This document shows positions 3,426 through 32,140 of a stretch of 64,000 nucleotides of DNA, one piece after another. A program made the position numbers and the translations under genes. The DNA is from Candidatus Eisenbacteria bacterium (GTDB taxonomy: Bacteria; Desulfobacterota; Binatia; DP-6), in assembly GCA_035577985.1 (NCBI GenBank), contig DATJZY010000045.1, forward strand, positions 1-64,000. Reading direction: 5' to 3'. Within the stretch, counting starts at the first letter, position 1, and the number at the start of each line of letters is the position of its first letter. The notes below the pieces were generated by a model that worked only from the letters and a program-made list of their open reading frames with translations, did not search any database and was not told the DNA's origin.

Positions 3426-4637
3426 ATGGAGCCCCTCTGCGTCATCGCCGACGATCTGACCGGGGCGTGCGATGTCGGCGCCGCGCTGCTGCCGTGGCCC
3501 GAGTCCGTCCTGGTCGACGTGGGGACCGGCGACCCGGTGCGCCCGCCCGTGCCCGGGCTTCACGTTCGCAACACGCAGAGCCGCGCGCTGCCCGCACCGC
3601 GCGCCGCCAAGGCCGTGACGAGCGTGCTGCGGACGCTGCCGCGGCCGTGGAAGGGCATCCTCGTCAAGAAGATCGACACGGGGCTGCGCGGCTCGCTCGG
3701 GGCCGAGCTCGACGCCGCCATCGAAGCCGTCGGCGCCGCCGAAGCGTTCGTGCTCCCGGCGATCCCCGACACTGGGCGGACGACGGTCGGCGGAATCCAG
3801 CGCATCGACGGCGTGCCGGTCGATCAGACGGCCTTCGCGACCGATCCCGAGAACCCGGTGCGCGACGCGCGGGTCGGCGCGGCGATCGAGGTGACGAGCC
3901 GCCGCCGCACGGGCATCCTCGAGTTGACCCACGTGCGCCGGGGCGCGGTGGCGGCGGCCGTCGACCGCCTGCGGGCCGAGGGCACCCAGGTCGTCGTGTG
4001 CGACGCCGAGACCGAGCAGGATCTCGAACGGACGCTGCAGGTGCTGGCGGCACGCGCACGGCCGCTCGTGCTCGCGGGTTCGACCGGCCTCGCCCACGCG
4101 CTTCGTCGAGTGCTCGGCGCGCCGGCGGAGGGCGCAGCGCCCGGCAACCGCACGCCCGCGCCCGGGAAGGGTGGCGTGCTCGTGGTCGTCGGCAGCGCAC
4201 ACCCCGTGGCGCGCGTCCAGCTCGCGCGTGCCGAGGCGCTGGCCTGGCTCCGTGTGATCGTGGTGGCCAAGGACGCGGACGTGTCCGGCGCGGCGACGGC
4301 GGCTGCGGCCGCGATCGCGACGGGCGGCAACGTCGCGCTCGTGACGCCCAACGAGCGCGCGAAACCCGGCGCCGTGCTCCCGGTCGCCGCGGCGGCGGAG
4401 ATGGCGCTCGCCGCGGCGCTTCCGGCGGGGCTCGTGCTCGTCGGCGGCGAGACCGCCTTCCGCACGCTGGTGGCGATGGGTGTTCGATGGCTCGCGGTCG
4501 ACGCCGCACCGGCGCCGCTGTGCGTGCGCGGCCACGTCGCGAGCGGCGCACGCGCGGGACTCGCCGTCGTGACCAAGGGCGGGTCGAGCGGGCCACCCGA
4601 GCGCGTCGCGGATCTCATCCGGGAGTTGACGGCGTGA
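3426..4637 (+). CDS. Four-carbon acid sugar kinase (DUF1537 family)
   Basis: This protein has 403 residues. It begins CVIADDLTGACDVGAALL, the N-terminal substrate-binding signature of the DUF1537 family (DtnK/OtnK/DenK-type kinases), and has KKIDTGLRGSLGAEL further on. The C-terminal nucleotide-binding half contains LVLAGSTGLAHALRR, VLVVVGSAHP and VTKGGSSG. Known members phosphorylate D-threonate, L- or D-erythronate or related C4 acids, feeding a PdxA2 dehydrogenase such as the one upstream. Exact substrate cannot be assigned. It sits 6 bases after the cyclase gene, and its stop overlaps the FKBP gene's GTG start (GTGA). Confidence 0.85.
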   Translation: MEPLCVIADDLTGACDVGAALLPWPESVLVDVGTGDPVRPPVPGLHVRNTQSRALPAPRAAKAVTSVLRTLPRPWKGILVKKIDTGLRGSLGAELDAAIEAVGAAEAFVLPAIPDTGRTTVGGIQRIDGVPVDQTAFATDPENPVRDARVGAAIEVTSRRRTGILELTHVRRGAVAAAVDRLRAEGTQVVVCDAETEQDLERTLQVLAARARPLVLAGSTGLAHALRRVLGAPAEGAAPGNRTPAPGKGGVLVVVGSAHPVARVQLARAEALAWLRVIVVAKDADVSGAATAAAAAIATGGNVALVTPNERAKPGAVLPVAAAAEMALAAALPAGLVLVGGETAFRTLVAMGVRWLAVDAAPAPLCVRGHVASGARAGLAVVTKGGSSGPPERVADLIRELTA

Positions 4638-5107
4638 GCGACGACCTCACCGTCGCTCCCGACCGCGTGGTGACGGTCGAGTACACCGTCCACCTGGAGA
4701 ACGGGCGCCTGCTCGACTCGACGGGGCACTGCGGTCCGATCGCGATCATGGTCGGCGCGGGGCAGCTCTTTGCGGCGCTCGAGGATCGCATCATCGGCAT
4801 GCGGCCGGGCGAGACGCGCGAGCTCCGCATCCCGCCCGAGGAGGCATACGGCGTCGGCCACGACGAGCTGGTGCGGACGATCCCGCGCGATCTCCTGCCG
4901 CCGGACCTCGAGCTGGTGGTCGGCGAGGAGTACCGGTTGAAGAGCCCGGACGGAAAGCCGCTGCGCTTCCGCGTCGTCGAGATCGCCGGCGGGGCGGTGC
5001 GCGCCGACTTCAACCCGCCGTTCGCGGGTCAGGCCCTCTTGGCCACCGTCACCGTGGTCGCCGTCCGGATGCCGACCCCCGAGGAGGAGCGGCGCGGGCG
5101 GGTGTAG
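4634..5107 (+). CDS. FKBP-type peptidyl-prolyl isomerase, SlyD-like
   Basis: This 157-residue protein has the split FKBP fold: VVTVEYTVHLENGRLLDST at the N-terminus, then GAGQLFAALEDRIIGMRPGE and IPPEEAYG. An inserted flap (about residues 75-125) in the SlyD/FkpB position probably binds unfolded client proteins. There is no signal peptide and no His-rich metal tail like that of E. coli SlyD, so a cytoplasmic folding helper is likely. The GTG start overlaps the kinase stop (GTGA). The last 59 bases overlap the tail of the opposite-strand gene at 5049-7298. Confidence 0.85.
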   Translation: MSDDLTVAPDRVVTVEYTVHLENGRLLDSTGHCGPIAIMVGAGQLFAALEDRIIGMRPGETRELRIPPEEAYGVGHDELVRTIPRDLLPPDLELVVGEEYRLKSPDGKPLRFRVVEIAGGAVRADFNPPFAGQALLATVTVVAVRMPTPEEERRGRV

Positions 5108-7298
5108 GCGCCGGCGCGGGCTCGACCGCGAGCGGGCCCAGGATGCGGAATCCGCACCGCCCCGAGATGGCGAGGGTCTTGCCCCAGTCGCCGATCTCCA
5201 TCCGGTCGACCGTGGCGAGCCCGAGCCGCCGATAGGACGCGTTCTTCGTGAGCACGGCGAGGTAGCCGAGGGGCAGCGCGTAGCGCGGATCTTCGAAGCG
5301 CGACGCCTCGGCGACCAGCGCGTCGGCGTACCGTACGAGCCAGTCGCGGATCCGTGGCTCGCCCGTGATCGCGTGCACCGCCGCGAGCCCGTCGGCGAGG
5401 ATGCCCATCTTCCAGTCGCCGGCCGCCGGGGTCGCCTGGTGGGCGCCGAGCGCCGTGTCGGCATAGCTCTTCGCGGCATCGCGGTAGCGCCCGTCGCCCG
5501 TGGCGTCGTAGGCGGCCGCGAGCGCGATCATGGGCCAGCCGAACTGGCGCGGGTTGCCGGCCTTGTAGCGGCGCCGCACGAGCACGTCCGCGATGCCGCG
5601 CGCGGCGTCGAGCGAGCGCACCTCGCCCGTGAGCCGATAGTGCGTCACGAGCCCTTCGAGCCACGTGTGGCCGAGGTCGATCGTGTTCGGCGATTCGACG
5701 GCGAAGTGCTTCACCTTGTGCGGGTGGTTGATGCCGACCACGTCTTCGTGGCCGGGCGCGAAGTGGATGATGTCGACGTCGCGATAGTGGCGCCCGGCGG
5801 CGATGAACGCGTCCCAGTCCTCGCGCGCTCCGGTTCCCGCCCAGGCGAGGCCCAGGACCTGGGTCAGGTCGTATTCGAGGTTGCCCCAGGCGTCGCATCC
5901 CTCGCTCCGATCGCGATAGCCGGGAAAGTTCCAGTCGCCCCAGTTGAGCGCGCCGTAGGTCCCGACGCGTTCGCGCTCGCTCGTGCGCTGATCGCACGGC
6001 ACGGGCGGCCCGTCGTCCCATCGCTCGGCGCGGCCGCGGGCGAGGTAGCGACCGATCCCGATCTGGAGGCGGGAGAAGAAACTCGCGGCGCCCGGCGAGG
6101 CGGCGGCGAGCGCGTTCGGGAGCGCGCGCGACGCGACGATCCAGGCGGCATCCGGCCGCGCGACCAGCGGATGCTGCAGCCGGGTTGCGAGTGCGGCGGG
6201 GTCGGCGGCGTGCGCGGGATCCTCGATCGCGATCCAGAGGTCGAAGGTCTTGGCGGCGCCGATGCCGAGGTCCACCGTCTCGTCGCCGTGTCCGGCGAGG
6301 AGATCGACCGTCAGCTCTCCCGGGCCGACACGAAGCGCCTGCGGCCACTCCTCGCGCAGGTAGCGACGGACGAGCGTCACCGCCACGCCGTCGCCGGCGG
6401 CGCGCAGCCATCCGTCGGCCTGCTGCGCGAGCGGGGTGCCGTCGAGCGCCGGCGCGCCCGCGTCCCACTGTGCGAGCGTGTGTGCCTCCTTCAGGTCCTC
6501 GAAGCGCCGCGCGCCCCCGCCGACGCCGACGGCGCCGCTCGCAAAGCGCCCGCGAACGGTGAACGGGAACGACGTGATGCGGCTGTAGGAGCGCGACGAG
6601 AAGCTCGTCAGCGTGAGCTGCACGCGGACCCACGGTTGGCCCGCGAAGGCGGCGATGCGGAGCTCGAAGGTGAGGTCGCTCGGGTAGCGGCCCTGCAGGA
6701 GGACCTCCGTGCGCACCGGACCCTCGGTCTCGATGCCGGAACGCAGGTCACGCAGAGCGCCGGGGGATTGCTCGGCGACCGCCGGGTCGGGGACGGGCAC
6801 TTCGCCCAGCGCCGGACGGCCCTTCAGGCGAGCCGAGCGAAGCGTGGCGGTCGCGTCGCGCGGGACGGTGAGCTCGAGCGGCCCGCTCGTGAGGACGATG
6901 TCGGTCGCGGTCCGGGCCGTCCGCACGGCGTCGGGGAAGGCGGCGGCCTTCCCGCCACCGTCCCGCAGCGTGTAGGTGACGGTCTCGTCCGCGCCGGCAC
7001 TGGCGAGGAAGTCCAGCAGGAGCCAGCGTATCGATCCATCGGGCCAACGCTCGAGGATGTGCGTCTGCGAGAGCGCCGGATGGTCGCTCGGGTCCGCGAT
7101 CCAGAGGCCGGCGGTCGTGCGCACGCGCCCCGCGGGCAGCGGCACGCCGACGGTCACCGGCTCGGCCTTGCGCGCGACGCCGGCCGGCTCGGCGATCGCG
7201 AGCGGTACCCGGAGCGGCGCGGCCGTTCCCCGCCAAGCGCACAGCAGGAGCAGGGCGACGGCGAAGCGGAGCGCGCGCACGAGACGGCAGCGTGCCAC
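5049..7298 (-). CDS. Large secreted protein resembling exo-rhamnogalacturonan lyases (PcRGLX/YetA-like)
   Basis: 749 residues with an N-terminal signal peptide (basic MARCRLVRALR, then a Leu/Ala core ending near GTAAPLR). The region after it (VTVGVPLPAG to ERWPDGSIRWLLLDF, about residues 45-95) resembles the RIFT-barrel domain of PcRGLX/YetA-type exo-rhamnogalacturonan lyases. The last third (LEGLVTHYRLTGEVRSLDAARG and repeated helical pairs) looks like an alpha/alpha toroid. Family assignment is from pattern memory and needs a profile search; substrate is unknown. The GTG start has GAGGAG about 12 bases upstream. It is transcribed divergently from the epimerase and its 3' end overlaps the FKBP gene by 59 bases. 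Confidence 0.55.
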   Translation of the reverse strand: MARCRLVRALRFAVALLLLCAWRGTAAPLRVPLAIAEPAGVARKAEPVTVGVPLPAGRVRTTAGLWIADPSDHPALSQTHILERWPDGSIRWLLLDFLASAGADETVTYTLRDGGGKAAAFPDAVRTARTATDIVLTSGPLELTVPRDATATLRSARLKGRPALGEVPVPDPAVAEQSPGALRDLRSGIETEGPVRTEVLLQGRYPSDLTFELRIAAFAGQPWVRVQLTLTSFSSRSYSRITSFPFTVRGRFASGAVGVGGGARRFEDLKEAHTLAQWDAGAPALDGTPLAQQADGWLRAAGDGVAVTLVRRYLREEWPQALRVGPGELTVDLLAGHGDETVDLGIGAAKTFDLWIAIEDPAHAADPAALATRLQHPLVARPDAAWIVASRALPNALAAASPGAASFFSRLQIGIGRYLARGRAERWDDGPPVPCDQRTSERERVGTYGALNWGDWNFPGYRDRSEGCDAWGNLEYDLTQVLGLAWAGTGAREDWDAFIAAGRHYRDVDIIHFAPGHEDVVGINHPHKVKHFAVESPNTIDLGHTWLEGLVTHYRLTGEVRSLDAARGIADVLVRRRYKAGNPRQFGWPMIALAAAYDATGDGRYRDAAKSYADTALGAHQATPAAGDWKMGILADGLAAVHAITGEPRIRDWLVRYADALVAEASRFEDPRYALPLGYLAVLTKNASYRRLGLATVDRMEIGDWGKTLAISGRCGFRILGPLAVEPAPAPTPARAAPPRGSASGRRPR

Positions 7299-28296: not shown

Positions 28297-28824
28297 ATGC
28301 AGTGCCCGATGTGCCGGGCTCCGGACAGCCGCGTGATCGACTCGCGCCTGGGGAAGGAAGGCGACATGATCCGTCGCCGGCGGCACTGCGACGGCTGTGG
28401 GCATCGCTTCACGACCTACGAGCGCGTCGAGGTCGCGCTCCCGATGGTGGTGAAGAAGGACGGCCGCCGGCAGCCGTTCGACCGCGGGCGCATCGTCTCG
28501 GGCCTCCGGCGGGCCTGCGAGAAGCGGCCGGTCTCGGTCGACACGATCGAGGAGGTCGCGAGCCAGATCGAACGCCAGACGCTCGAGCGCGGCGAGAGCG
28601 AGGTCACGAGCCGGCAGATCGGCGAGGCGGTGATGGCCGCCCTGCACGACCTCGACGCCGTCGCCTACGTGCGCTTCGCGTCGGTCTATCGCGAGTTCCG
28701 CGACGTGCACGAGTTCATGCACGAGCTCGAAGAGCTGATCGCAGCCCGCAGCGCCGGCGCGCGGCGACCCAAAGCGGGGCGAACGTCGCCGACCACGCAG
28801 CGGCGCTCGCGGTCGCGCGCGTGA
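28297..28824 (+). CDS. nrdR: Transcriptional repressor NrdR
   Basis: 175 residues. Represses ribonucleotide reductase genes when its ATP-cone senses dATP. Zinc ribbon [17 protein letters not shown] with CDGCGHRF, then the ATP-cone ([30 protein letters not shown]), ending in the usual [11 protein letters not shown]. The C-terminal 25 residues (basic and Ser/Arg-rich) extend slightly beyond the family core. Lies 6 bases after glyA and overlaps ribD (GTGA), the common glyA-nrdR-ribD order. Confidence 0.94.
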
Positions 28825-29975
28825 GCCCGCGGACGAGGTCGCGCGACACCGACGCGCGCTGGATGGCGCGCGCGGTCGCGCTCGCAGGGCGCGCGCTCGG
28901 ACGGACGTTTCCCAACCCCCCGGTCGGCGCGGTGTTCGTGAAGCGCGGGCGCGTCGTGGGCGAGGGCTGGACGGCGCCGGCGGGCGGCCCGCACGCCGAG
29001 ATCGCCGCGCTCCGTCGCGCCGGCGCTCGCGCCCGCGGTGCCGATCTCTACGTCACGCTCGAGCCGTGCGCGCACGTCGGACGGACGCCGCCGTGCGTCG
29101 ATGCGCTGCTGCCGCTCGGCCTGCGACGCGTCGTCATCGCGGCCGTCGATCCCAACCCGCGGGTTCGGGGCCGCAGCATCCGCCGCCTGCGCGCGGCCGG
29201 CGTGCGCGTCACCGTCGGGATCGGGAGGGACGAGGCGGATGCGCTCACCGCCGGGTACCGGTCGCGCCTCCTGCGCGGTCGTCCGCTCGTGACGCTGAAG
29301 CTCGCGACCTCGCTCGACGGGCGCATCGCCGCGCGCTCGGGCGACGCGCGCTGGATCACGGGACCCGCCGCGCGACGCCGGGCCCACGTCCTGCGCGACG
29401 TGCACGACGCGGTCGTGGTCGGCGCGGGGACGGTGCGCGCCGACGACCCCCGCCTCACGTGTCGCATCGCCGGCGGGCGCGACCCGATCCGGGTCGTCCT
29501 GTGCGGCGCGGGGGTGTCGTTGCCGGCGAAGGCCCAGGTGCTCGCTCGCGGCGGCGCGCCCACGTGGATCGTGGCGCCGCGCGGCGCGAGCCCGTCGCGC
29601 GTCGAGCGCCTGCGACGGCGAGCGGCCCAGGTGATCCTCATCCCCGCGCGGCGGGGGCGGATGGCGTTCGGTGACGTCGTGGGGGCGCTCGGCGCGCGCG
29701 GGATCACCTCGGTGCTGGTCGAGGGCGGCGCGGTCGTCGCGCGCGATGCGCTACGCGCCGGCGTCGTCGATCGCGTCGTGTGGTTCCTGGCGCCGGCGCT
29801 GCTCGGGGGCGACGCGGTGCCGGCCGTCGCCGGGCTCGGCATCGATCGGGCGCGCGATGCCGTGCGCCTGGTCGACGCCCGCGTGGCGCGCCTCGGCGGC
29901 GACCTCGTGCTCACGGCCTCGGTGGCCGGCCGGAACGGGCGGCGACCCTTTGCCTCCTCGTGGCCACCGCGGTAG
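28821..29975 (+). CDS. ribD: Bifunctional riboflavin deaminase/reductase
   Basis: 384 residues. The N-terminal deaminase domain has the zinc site HAEIAALR and [11 protein letters not shown]. The C-terminal reductase domain (from about residue 155) has [41 protein letters not shown] and [14 protein letters not shown]. Acts second and third in riboflavin synthesis after GTP cyclohydrolase II. Several upstream codons in this frame belong to nrdR antireading; the GTG at 28821 overlaps the nrdR stop and starts 15 residues before the deaminase core. The TAG stop lies inside the -10 box of the next promoter. Confidence 0.93.
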
Positions 29976-29978
29976 GCT
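29950..29978 (+). promoter_or_regulatory. Promoter of ribBA, leaderless type, inside the end of ribD
   Basis: TTGCCT (29950-29955), 17-bp spacer, TAGGCT (29973-29978), then 7 bases to the ATG at 29986. The ribD stop codon TAG forms the first three bases of the -10. Confidence 0.45.
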
Positions 29979-29985
29979 CGCGCCG

Positions 29986-31203
29986 ATGACCGCGGCGGAT
30001 CGCAGCCGAGCGACGCTCGAGCGGTTGCGCACCGGTGGTGTCGTGCTGATCGTCGACGACGCGACCGATCCGGCGCAGGCGTCGCTCGTGTGCGCGGCGG
30101 CTCGCGTGACGCCGTCCGCCATCAACTTCATGGCGACGCACGGGCGCGGGCTCGTCTGTCTCACGATGGCACGCGAGCGGATGCGCCAGCTCGGGATCCC
30201 CCTGATGACGTCGGAGCTCAGCCACGGGCCGGTGCGCTACGGCGCGTCGATCGAGGCGCGGCGGGGCGTGTCGACCGGCATCAGCGCCGCCGATCGCGCC
30301 ACGACGATCCTCGCCGCCGTGGCGCGCGACGCGACCCCGGCCGAGCTCGTCATGCCGGGGCACGTGACGCCGATCCAGCTCACCGCGGGCGGCTCGCTGG
30401 TGCGTGCGGCCACCGCCGAGGCCGCGAGCGATCTCACGCGCCTCGCCGGCGCCGGGGTCGAGGCCGTCCTGTGCGAGGTGCTCGGGCGCGACGGCGACCT
30501 CGCGGGCGAGGCCGAGCTGGCGGCGCTCGCGCGCGAGCAGGAGCTGCCGCTCGTCACGGTGACCGACGTGATCCAGATGCGCTTGCGCTCCGACACGCTC
30601 GTGCGCCGCGTCGCCGAGGCGATGCTGCCCATGGGTGACGGACCGACGTTCCGCGCCATCGTCTACGACAACAGCATCGATCAGCACCAGCACATGGCGC
30701 TCGTCCTGGGCGACGTGCGCGACGGCGACGATGTGCTGGTCCGCCTGCACTCGGAGTGTCTCACCGGCGACGTGTTCGGCTCCGAGCGCTGCGATTGCGG
30801 CGACCAGCTCCAGCAGGCGATCGACCTCATCGTCGCCGAAGGGCGCGGCGTGCTCGTGTACCTCCATCAGGAGGGACGCGGCATCGGCCTCGCGAACAAG
30901 ATCCGCGCCTACGCCCTGCAGGACCGCGGTCGCGACACGGTCGAAGCGAACCTCGAGCTCGGCTTCCGCGAGGACCTGCGCGACTATGGCATCGGTGCAC
31001 AGATCCTGCGCGACCTCGGCGTCGAGCGCGTGCGCCTGCTCACCAACAACCCGCAGAAGATCGCGGGTCTCGAGGCGTACGGCGCGACGGTGGTCGCGCG
31101 GACGCCGCTCGAGGTGGCGCCGCACGCCGGCAACATCGAGTACCTGCGCACCAAGCAGGCGAAGCTCGGCCACCTCCTCTCCGGCCTGGCGCCGCGCGGC
31201 TGA
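29986..31203 (+). CDS. ribBA: RibBA: active-looking GTP cyclohydrolase II fused to a degenerate DHBP synthase domain
   Basis: 405 residues. The C-terminal RibA half (from about residue 205) looks intact: [13 protein letters not shown] with Zn ligands CxxxxxxxxxxCDC, [16 protein letters not shown] and LTNNPQKI. The N-terminal RibB half keeps the fold ([33 protein letters not shown]) but has lost catalysis-critical sites. Where DHBP synthases read DDEDRENEGD it reads [10 protein letters not shown] (residues 24-33), and GHTEA is ATAEA (142-146), removing both the metal-binding Glu and His. This half is predicted not to make 3,4-dihydroxybutanone phosphate. GTP cyclohydrolase II activity is expected. 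Confidence 0.9.
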
Positions 31204-31213
31204 CGGTCGAGCG

Positions 31214-31687
31214 GTGCCCCGAACGTTCCACGCCGAGCCCAAGGGCCACGGGCTCCGGATCGGGATCGTGGTTGCCCGCTTCAACCAGGCGGTGACCGAC
31301 GCGCTCCTCCACGGCGCGGTCGGCGCGCTCACGGCTGCGGGCGTCGCCGACGACGCCATCGACGTGACCGTCGTGCCCGGCGCCTACGAGCTGCCGCTCG
31401 GCGCGCAGCGCCTCGCATCGACGGGGCGGTACGACGCAATCGTCTGCCTGGGTGCGGTCGTGCGCGGCGGCACACCGCACTTCGACTACGTTGCCTCGGC
31501 GGCGACCCTCGGGATCGGCGAGGTGGCGCGGCGCTTCGATCTCCCGGTGGCGTTCGGCGTCCTCACGACCGACACGATGGACCAGGCGCTCGCGCGCGCC
31601 GGGGGCGATCACGGCAACAAGGGGCACGACGCGGCCGTCACGGCGCTCGAGATGGCGCAGGTGCTGCGCCTCCTGAACCGGTACTGA
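31214..31687 (+). CDS. ribH: 6,7-dimethyl-8-ribityllumazine synthase
   Basis: 157 residues. Condenses ribitylaminouracil with 3,4-dihydroxybutanone phosphate, the penultimate step of riboflavin synthesis. GIVVARFNQAVTDALL, VVPGAYELPLGAQRL, GAVVRGGTPHFDYVASA (catalytic His) and FGVLTTDTMDQALARAG with GNKG are present. The GTG start is 10 bases after ribBA; an ATG would only be found well inside the domain. Its butanone substrate must come from an enzyme other than the neighbouring RibB domain if that domain is dead as it appears. Confidence 0.93.
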   Translation: MPRTFHAEPKGHGLRIGIVVARFNQAVTDALLHGAVGALTAAGVADDAIDVTVVPGAYELPLGAQRLASTGRYDAIVCLGAVVRGGTPHFDYVASAATLGIGEVARRFDLPVAFGVLTTDTMDQALARAGGDHGNKGHDAAVTALEMAQVLRLLNRY

Positions 31688-31690
31688 GCC

Positions 31691-32140
31691 ATGGGGGGCC
31701 GTCGGTTCGGACGCGAGCTCGCGCTGCAGGCGCTCTACAAGCTCGACATGCTGGGCGACGCGGCCGGGCCGGGGTCGCTCGGCCTCTTCTGGGAGCACCT
31801 GGTTCCGGAGGACGCCGCGCGCGGCGGCGAGAGCGAGACGTTCGCACGCGAGCTCGTCGAGGGAGTGCTGGCCCATCGCGAGCGGATCGACGAGCTGATC
31901 GCGGCGGCCGCGGAGCACTGGCAGCTGCCGCGCCTGTCGCGGGTGGACCTCAATCTCCTGCGCGTGGCGACGTTCGAGCTGATGGAGCGCCCCGACATTC
32001 CGGCCGCCGTCACGATCGACGAGGCGATCGAAGTGGCGCGGCGATTCGGGAGCGAGGACTCGCCCGCCTTCGTCAACGGCGTGCTCGATCAGATCGCGGG
32101 CGTCGTGGGCGCAAAGGATCGGGCCGGGAGGACGCCGTGA
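31691..32140 (+). CDS. nusB: Transcription antitermination factor NusB
   Basis: 149 residues, all helical. Binds boxA RNA with S10 during rRNA transcription. GRRFGRELALQALYKLDML at the N-terminus (the family RxxARExAxQxLY helix) and VDLNLLRVATFELMERPDIPAAVTIDEAIEVARRFGSEDSPAFVNGVLD at the C-terminus are diagnostic. Follows ribH by 3 bases in the usual ribH-nusB order. Its stop overlaps the lptE GTG (GTGA). Confidence 0.93.
   Translation: MGGRRFGRELALQALYKLDMLGDAAGPGSLGLFWEHLVPEDAARGGESETFARELVEGVLAHRERIDELIAAAAEHWQLPRLSRVDLNLLRVATFELMERPDIPAAVTIDEAIEVARRFGSEDSPAFVNGVLDQIAGVVGAKDRAGRTP

Follow-up and report, generated by a model that had tools for sequence, protein, structure and literature searches.

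By sequence, the RibBA-type gene of the window (the whole 64,000-nucleotide stretch analysed here), which we name RibXA, is one of two reciprocal half-pseudoenzymes in its genome, since RibXA (the A-type) fails the curated ribB cut-off and passes that for ribA, while its paralogue on contig C72 (RibBX, the B-type) passes ribB and fails ribA. In the sequences compared, the reciprocal loss is conserved across the class and goes together with purifying selection, a partition of cis and trans active-site residues between the two copies, a reversal of roles in one sub-clade and a second, independent case. We consider it rather probable that a duplication was followed by a division of labour and that RibXA and RibBX form a heterodimer in which loops 4 and 5 of RibXA would complete a prozyme-like split site for 3,4-dihydroxybutanone 4-phosphate (DHBP) synthesis; the pairing, the catalysis and any regulation are what we infer from these patterns.

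Architecture and fold of RibXA

29986..31203, + strand: RibXA, A-type RibBA gene of 405 aa, with a degenerate RibB half and an intact RibA half
29986..30600, + strand: RibB half, catalytically degenerate but folded (AlphaFold2 pLDDT mostly 84-96; alignment to 3ls6)
30595..31203, + strand: RibA half, intact (zinc Cys 258, 269 and 271; HQEGRGIGL)

Profile matches place PF00926 at residues 10-197 (E 5.7e-53) and PF00925 at residues 208-374 (E 1.8e-70). Scored against the NCBIfam curated cut-offs, the protein reaches 246 bits for ribA (cut-off 205.85) and 147 bits for ribB (cut-off 177.45). Its RibA half carries the three zinc cysteines, QEGRGIGL and TNNPxK and passes the ribA equivalog cut-off, as befits a GTP cyclohydrolase II (GCHII), so that the initial annotation was right to describe this half as intact. 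The features of a DHBP synthase (DHBPS), namely loop 1, Thr154 and a score above the ribB equivalog cut-off, are absent from the RibB half. Of the two sites that a bifunctional RibBA combines in one chain, the DRENEGD loop of DHBPS and the zinc-cysteine site of GCHII, RibXA has only the latter.

The AlphaFold2 model of RibXA has a mean pLDDT of 87, and the RibB half is well folded except at residues 78-80. When compared by VIA-align, the model superposes on the solved RibBX 6mnz (Z 32.9, rmsd 3.9 over 331) and on M. tuberculosis RibBA 4i14 (Z 32.2, rmsd 2.5 over 318). Taken by itself, the RibB half superposes on the solved RibB 3ls6 (Z 30.7, rmsd 1.7 over 201). The RibB fold is hence still present, as noted initially.

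Active-site residues of the RibB half

In V. cholerae DHBPS, loops 1 (34-41), 2 (82-98) and 3 (175-185) of the active site come from one monomer (cis), and loops 4 (103'-111') and 5 (132'-138') from its partner (trans) (PMC5228156). The RibB half of RibXA was aligned to E. coli RibB, whose numbering (V. cholerae minus 1) is used below for residues such as Thr107 and His136.

30055..30084, + strand: loop 1 (cis), DDEDRENEGD replaced (residues 24-33); Arg37, Glu38, Glu40 and Asp42 lost
30199..30246, + strand: loop 2 (cis) region, shortened; Thr93 and Thr96 lost
30259..30294, + strand: loop 4 (trans) and Asp113, intact; Thr97 is E. coli Thr107
30346..30366, + strand: loop 5 (trans), LVMPGHV; His126, which is E. 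coli His136, kept; Met123 nearly invariant among window-clade A-types
30409..30423, + strand: ATAEA (residues 142-146) instead of GHTEA or GQTEG; Thr154 lost
30475..30507, + strand: loop 3 (cis) region; Met182 and Arg184 lost, Glu174 equivalent kept

The Glu174 equivalent of the window copy (E164) is lost in nearly all other A-types. The alignment confirms that DRENEGD and GHTEA are gone and MPGH is retained; together with the failed ribB cut-off, the loss of catalytic residues supports the view, already taken in the initial annotation, that this half is a pseudoenzyme. That view had been argued from the loss of both metal ligands. The GHTEA motif has indeed disappeared, but His153 is no safe marker: GQTEG is the reading in 26 of 28 ordinary RibBA proteins whose RibA is intact (from named Deltaproteobacteria, Nitrospirota and other taxa), and the class's own B-types have GQTE as well. 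A Gln at 153 therefore does not mark an enzyme as dead, and we rejected His153 as the key loss because GQTEG is the usual form in ordinary deltaproteobacterial and Nitrospirota RibBA. Given the same count, the immediate ancestor of RibXA probably already had Gln at this position. Stronger sequence evidence for the death of the RibB half is the loss of Arg37, Glu38, Asp42 and Thr154, with that of Glu174 across the class.

A RibBX-type paralogue in the same genome

It had been expected that DHBP must come from elsewhere, and a search for a second ribB supports this. In the window's genome (5.7 Mb, 99.5% complete), a genome-wide family search detected a single further PF00926 domain, at G000:C72:24937-25512. 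The RibB half of this C72 paralogue contains DDEDRENEGD, Thr154 and Glu174; its loop 4 reads GVRTGISAID, and both Thr107 and His136 are present. Its RibA half reads IEYLPGDIFGYRERDTR, with all three zinc cysteines lost. With 253 bits for ribB, which passes, 104 bits for ribA against the required 205.85, and its cysteines replaced, the protein is of the RibBX type; as the carrier of the only other RibB in the genome, it is the apparent source of DHBP. The X half, as the RibA half of the B-types may be called, retains RVH, GDVF, GIGAQIL and LTN and has lost the GTP site.

The genome encodes a third PF00925 protein (G000:C22:55344-56288; L311, ORF 4496-6388), in which the motif SSCITSEVYGACDCDC, with its cysteines, is accompanied by a second stretch of weak resemblance to RibA. 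Its gene adjoins genes resembling a SIS-domain/creatininase protein and a c-type cytochrome, and it is probably a cyclohydrolase of another pathway.

Distribution, age and selection

RibB was found in all 148 genomes of the class that were examined (17 families), nearly always in two copies; outside the class, most sampled genomes of the same phylum gave one match. A-types and B-types each form one clade both in the tree of RibB halves (SH-aLRT 99 and 95) and in that of RibA halves (support 95 and 94), which indicates that the pair is ancient. Between families, the RibB halves of A-types share 43.5% identity and their RibA halves 64.1%; for B-types the figures are 65.8% and 55.2%. In close pairs, the median dN/dS is 0.107 for the dead RibB half and 0.096 for the intact RibA half; a value of about 0.1 shows that the dead half is kept by purifying selection. 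In the sub-clade of families f2 and f12, the dead half has a dN/dS of 0.12-0.18 (g6, g19).

The losses in the RibB half of RibXA are extensive, as would be expected from the neutral decay of a superfluous domain or from a sequencing error. We find this reading hardly credible, because the loss is common to the A-type genes of the whole class, selection on the two halves is nearly equal and no truncation is seen. An error in the sequence, which the initial annotation had proposed to check against close relatives, is ruled out by the conservation of the loop 1 loss in orthologues (103 A-type genes, 15 families).

Some genomes depart from the common pattern. One f4 genome (L270, G109:C163) has, in place of the B-type, an ordinary RibBA whose loop 4 and zinc cysteines are intact, through horizontal transfer or contamination. 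In two f6 genomes, a divergent standalone RibB containing DPDREGEGD and GHTEA occurs as a third copy (L307, G118:C440; L308, G117:C402). In an f17 genome (G120, 81% complete), the only copy found was an A-type split over two contig ends (L271 and L273), with no B-type.

Partition of cis and trans loops between the two copies

Thr-108' of V. cholerae DHBPS (E. coli Thr107) is strictly conserved (PMC5228156), and its exchange for Ser is described, for the M. jannaschii enzyme only, as inactivating (cited in PMC5228156). Inhibitor binding in a fungal DHBPS involves the equivalents of Arg37, Arg150, Thr154, Asp42 and His136 (PMC12268802). Thr107 and His136 occur in 80 of 80 outgroup RibB sequences. 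We scored sites that are invariant in at least 95% of outgroup RibB, with family-weighted retention and a cis/trans map taken from the literature and so independent of these data.

Within the clade that includes the window, retention in the 74 A-types is 0.31 for cis sites and 1.00 for trans sites, all 10 trans sites standing at 0.98 or above. For the 72 B-types the values are 0.98 (cis) and 0.67 (trans); Thr107 stands at 0.04, Val105 at 0.17 and Ile109 at 0.26. The cis versus trans contrast gives Fisher p values of 3.7e-7 and 0.009, for sites that are not independent. Position 107 of these B-types is occupied by Ser, Arg, Gly, His, Asn, Leu, Ala, Lys or Glu, and this variety points to decay and not to a new motif. 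In family f9, ten B-types have His136Tyr, and every gap-free window-clade A-type has His at this position.

The roles are reversed in the sister sub-clade (f2, f12 and probably f17), where Thr107 is retained at 1.00 in B-types with readable loops and at 0.00 in A-types, which have often lost His136 along with it. The intact loop 4 of the f12 B-type, NVTTGISASD, was predicted from the f2 rule before it was read. Both genes could be read in 95 genomes; at least one copy has Thr107 in each of these, and in three, the window's own among them, both copies have it. RibBX of two f15 genomes likewise has Thr107 and His136.

An unbiased scan of all RibB sites for reciprocal constraint ranked 107, 133, 109, 100, 136, 105, 104 and 106 at the top, and when the loop 4/5 mask was shifted circularly, only the true position among 187 shifts reached the score. 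In a 97-genome tree built without loops 4 and 5, one branch with a support of 99 splits the two sub-clades. The state of Thr107 changes once in A and three times in B (5 and 19 residue changes), never in A inside the window's clade and never in B inside the sister clade. Because a single branch separates the sub-clades, the class-wide correlation amounts to one reciprocal switch with lasting opposite constraint and not to many independent events. Met at position 133 (MPGH) stands at 0.97 in window-clade A-types and is variable elsewhere; it is perhaps a heterodimer contact.

Since loops 4 and 5 sit at the DHBPS dimer interface (PMC5228156), some constraint on them would be expected if they were kept for the fold or for a RibXA homodimer interface. 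We regard this as improbable: the kept His136 and Thr107 contact the substrate or the metal-binding Glu and not the core, and in f2 and f12 the dead half persists under purifying selection although both loops are lost, which indicates that the fold does not need them. It is more improbable still that the dead half has taken on a new ligand or a new reaction. Some residues, Pro81 and Met133 among them, occur specifically in A-types, as such a function might require, but loop 1 varies by family without any newly fixed motif, and Arg37 and Thr154, which bind phosphate, have been lost.

RibB copies outside the class

In members of the phylum outside the class, second RibB copies are mostly ordinary standalone RibB. 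Only two genomes there, G152 and G181, show a loss of Thr107, and each has a second RibB copy with this residue. In family f22, which belongs to another class, one copy (G152:C466; G223:C31) is dead in cis, with DNEDPDSEGD or DNEDQDSEGD in loop 1, Glu174Thr, Arg184Gln and a dead RibA half, and keeps the trans loops GVTTGISAAD and CPGHVFP. In the other copy (G152:C67) the cis residues are complete and the RibA half is of the working type, and the loops read GVTKGMSARD and PGQ, so that Thr107 and His136 are gone. Between G152 and G223 the cis-dead half has a dN of 0.023, a dS of 0.43 and a dN/dS of 0.05; in G223, which is 62% complete, only the cis-dead copy was found. Judged from these sequences, the cis/trans split arose independently in f22.

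In G181 (f51), a RibBX with all RibB loops intact is accompanied by a complete RibBA that has GIASGISPAD as its loop 4 (Thr107Ser; L379 and L380). This pair may represent an early step towards such a division. In other phyla, genomes that carry a lone RibBX (Myxococcales, Sandaracinus and others) have no further RibB copy.

A candidate heterodimeric DHBP synthase

We propose that RibBA was duplicated in the ancestor of the class and that the copies shared out the work, RibXA keeping GTP cyclohydrolase II and RibBX the residues needed to bind ribulose 5-phosphate and process it. In the sub-clade containing the window, the dead RibB half of RibXA would pair with the RibB half of RibBX and donate loops 4 and 5 (Thr107, Asp113, His136) to its site. 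Each heterodimer would thus hold one composite DHBP synthase site (half-of-sites), with GCHII on the donor subunit, and the first steps of both branches of the riboflavin pathway would be tied together. In f2 and f12, RibBX would be self-sufficient and the dead half only structural or regulatory.

There is, in our estimate, slightly better than an even chance that DHBP synthase is an obligate split-site heterodimer in most of the class and, independently, in f22, with cis residues from one paralogue and the lid loop and His136 from the dead RibB half of the other, and that in the class the RibA-bearing subunit gates DHBP synthesis and balances both branches. The dependence between RibXA and RibBX is less forced in the window's own genome, because RibBX there has both Thr107 and His136; a RibBX homodimer could be sufficient in this genome and in the two f15 genomes. 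Where position 107 is Ser, Arg or Gly, RibBX might still be active as a homodimer, in a manner unlike that of the model enzymes.

The initial annotation suggested that the degenerate domain serves the structure or regulation of RibA. Extended to the class, this would mean that the dead half only stabilises or regulates the RibA half and that RibBX homodimers make all DHBP despite their altered loop 4, which we think unlikely, if worth keeping in view. In f2 and f12, where the dead half has lost all its special residues, cis and trans, and is still kept, a RibA-support role is the obvious reading. Plant RIBA3 (DHBPS-dead, GCHII-active) offers a precedent, as does, according to PMC10012899, the regulatory X half of RibBX in Shewanella. 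Such a role leaves unexplained why the dead half of the window's clade fully retains trans but not cis residues, why Thr107 and His136 of RibBX decay only where the other copy keeps them, and why f22 shows the same split. The suggestion is thus natural for f2 and f12 and misses the retention of trans residues against partner decay in the window's clade.

Comparison with known systems

It is already known that RibBA-type proteins can show reciprocal loss and that a dead paralogue can activate an impaired enzyme. RibBX was described in Proteobacteria (Brutinel et al. 2013, Shewanella, as summarised in PMC10012899). Like the C72 partner, the RibBX of Shewanella, Aeromonas salmonicida and A. baumannii (6mnz) consists of a working-type RibB fused to a RibA half without zinc cysteines. 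The RibBX of other taxa examined keeps loop 4 and His136, whereas most partners in the class lack Thr107; moreover, the described RibBX works with a separate RibA, whereas in the class RibA is part of a chain whose RibB half is dead.

Plant RIBA3, a DHBPS-dead half fused to an active GCHII and kept since early vascular plants (Hiltunen et al. 2012, PMC3509567), appears from its matching sequence pattern to be a direct precedent for RibXA, and Arabidopsis RIBA2 has conversely lost GCHII (PMC3509567). Plants, however, keep a bifunctional RIBA1 beside RIBA3, and no cis/trans residue split is reported for them. In trypanosomatid deoxyhypusine synthase and the AdoMetDC prozyme, a dead paralogue activates an impaired enzyme in a hetero-oligomer (PMC3663545, PMC6221367). 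By analogy, these may be a works-like precedent for RibXA and RibBX; they are other enzymes, and eukaryotic, whereas RibXA and RibBX are both fusions, each carrying or having lost a second enzyme. The NCBIfam family PRK08815 (NF006456, GTP cyclohydrolase II RibA, 376 positions) is a curated RibA family with a profile that extends over much of the RibB region; the window protein is not a member (207 against a cut-off of 464).

The literature searched, which includes few subscription journals, contains no report of a DHBP synthase heterodimer or of a cis/trans partition between RibBA paralogues. If the proposal is true, a bacterial vitamin-pathway enzyme has been rebuilt from two half-dead copies, and the evolutionary steps are visible in the self-sufficient RibBX of f2 and f12, the dependent RibBX elsewhere and the second origin in f22. 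It would offer a concrete answer to the frequent retention of dead RibBA halves (RibBX, plant RIBA3). For annotation, it should be noted that both genes are called bifunctional RibBA by homology and that neither is.

Gene neighbourhood

28297..28824, + strand: nrdR, first gene after glyA in a conserved cluster
28821..29975, + strand: ribD (approximate start), directly upstream of RibXA
31214..31687, + strand: ribH, lumazine synthase, DHBP user (approximate start), directly downstream of RibXA
31691..32140, + strand: nusB, after ribH in the conserved order

The order glyA-nrdR-ribD-RibXA-ribH-nusB is complete in 33 of 55 loci checked, and subsets of it occur in nearly all others. Neither an FMN riboswitch nor any other Rfam family was found in the window at gathering score. 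Open frames of 730-825 aa in some relatives suggested a RibD-RibXA fusion, which was rejected because the upstream part is a different reading frame. The riboflavin synthase gene ribE (PF00677) lies outside the ribD-RibXA-ribH cluster (junction 29975-29986) and was found at G000:C10:14148-14690.
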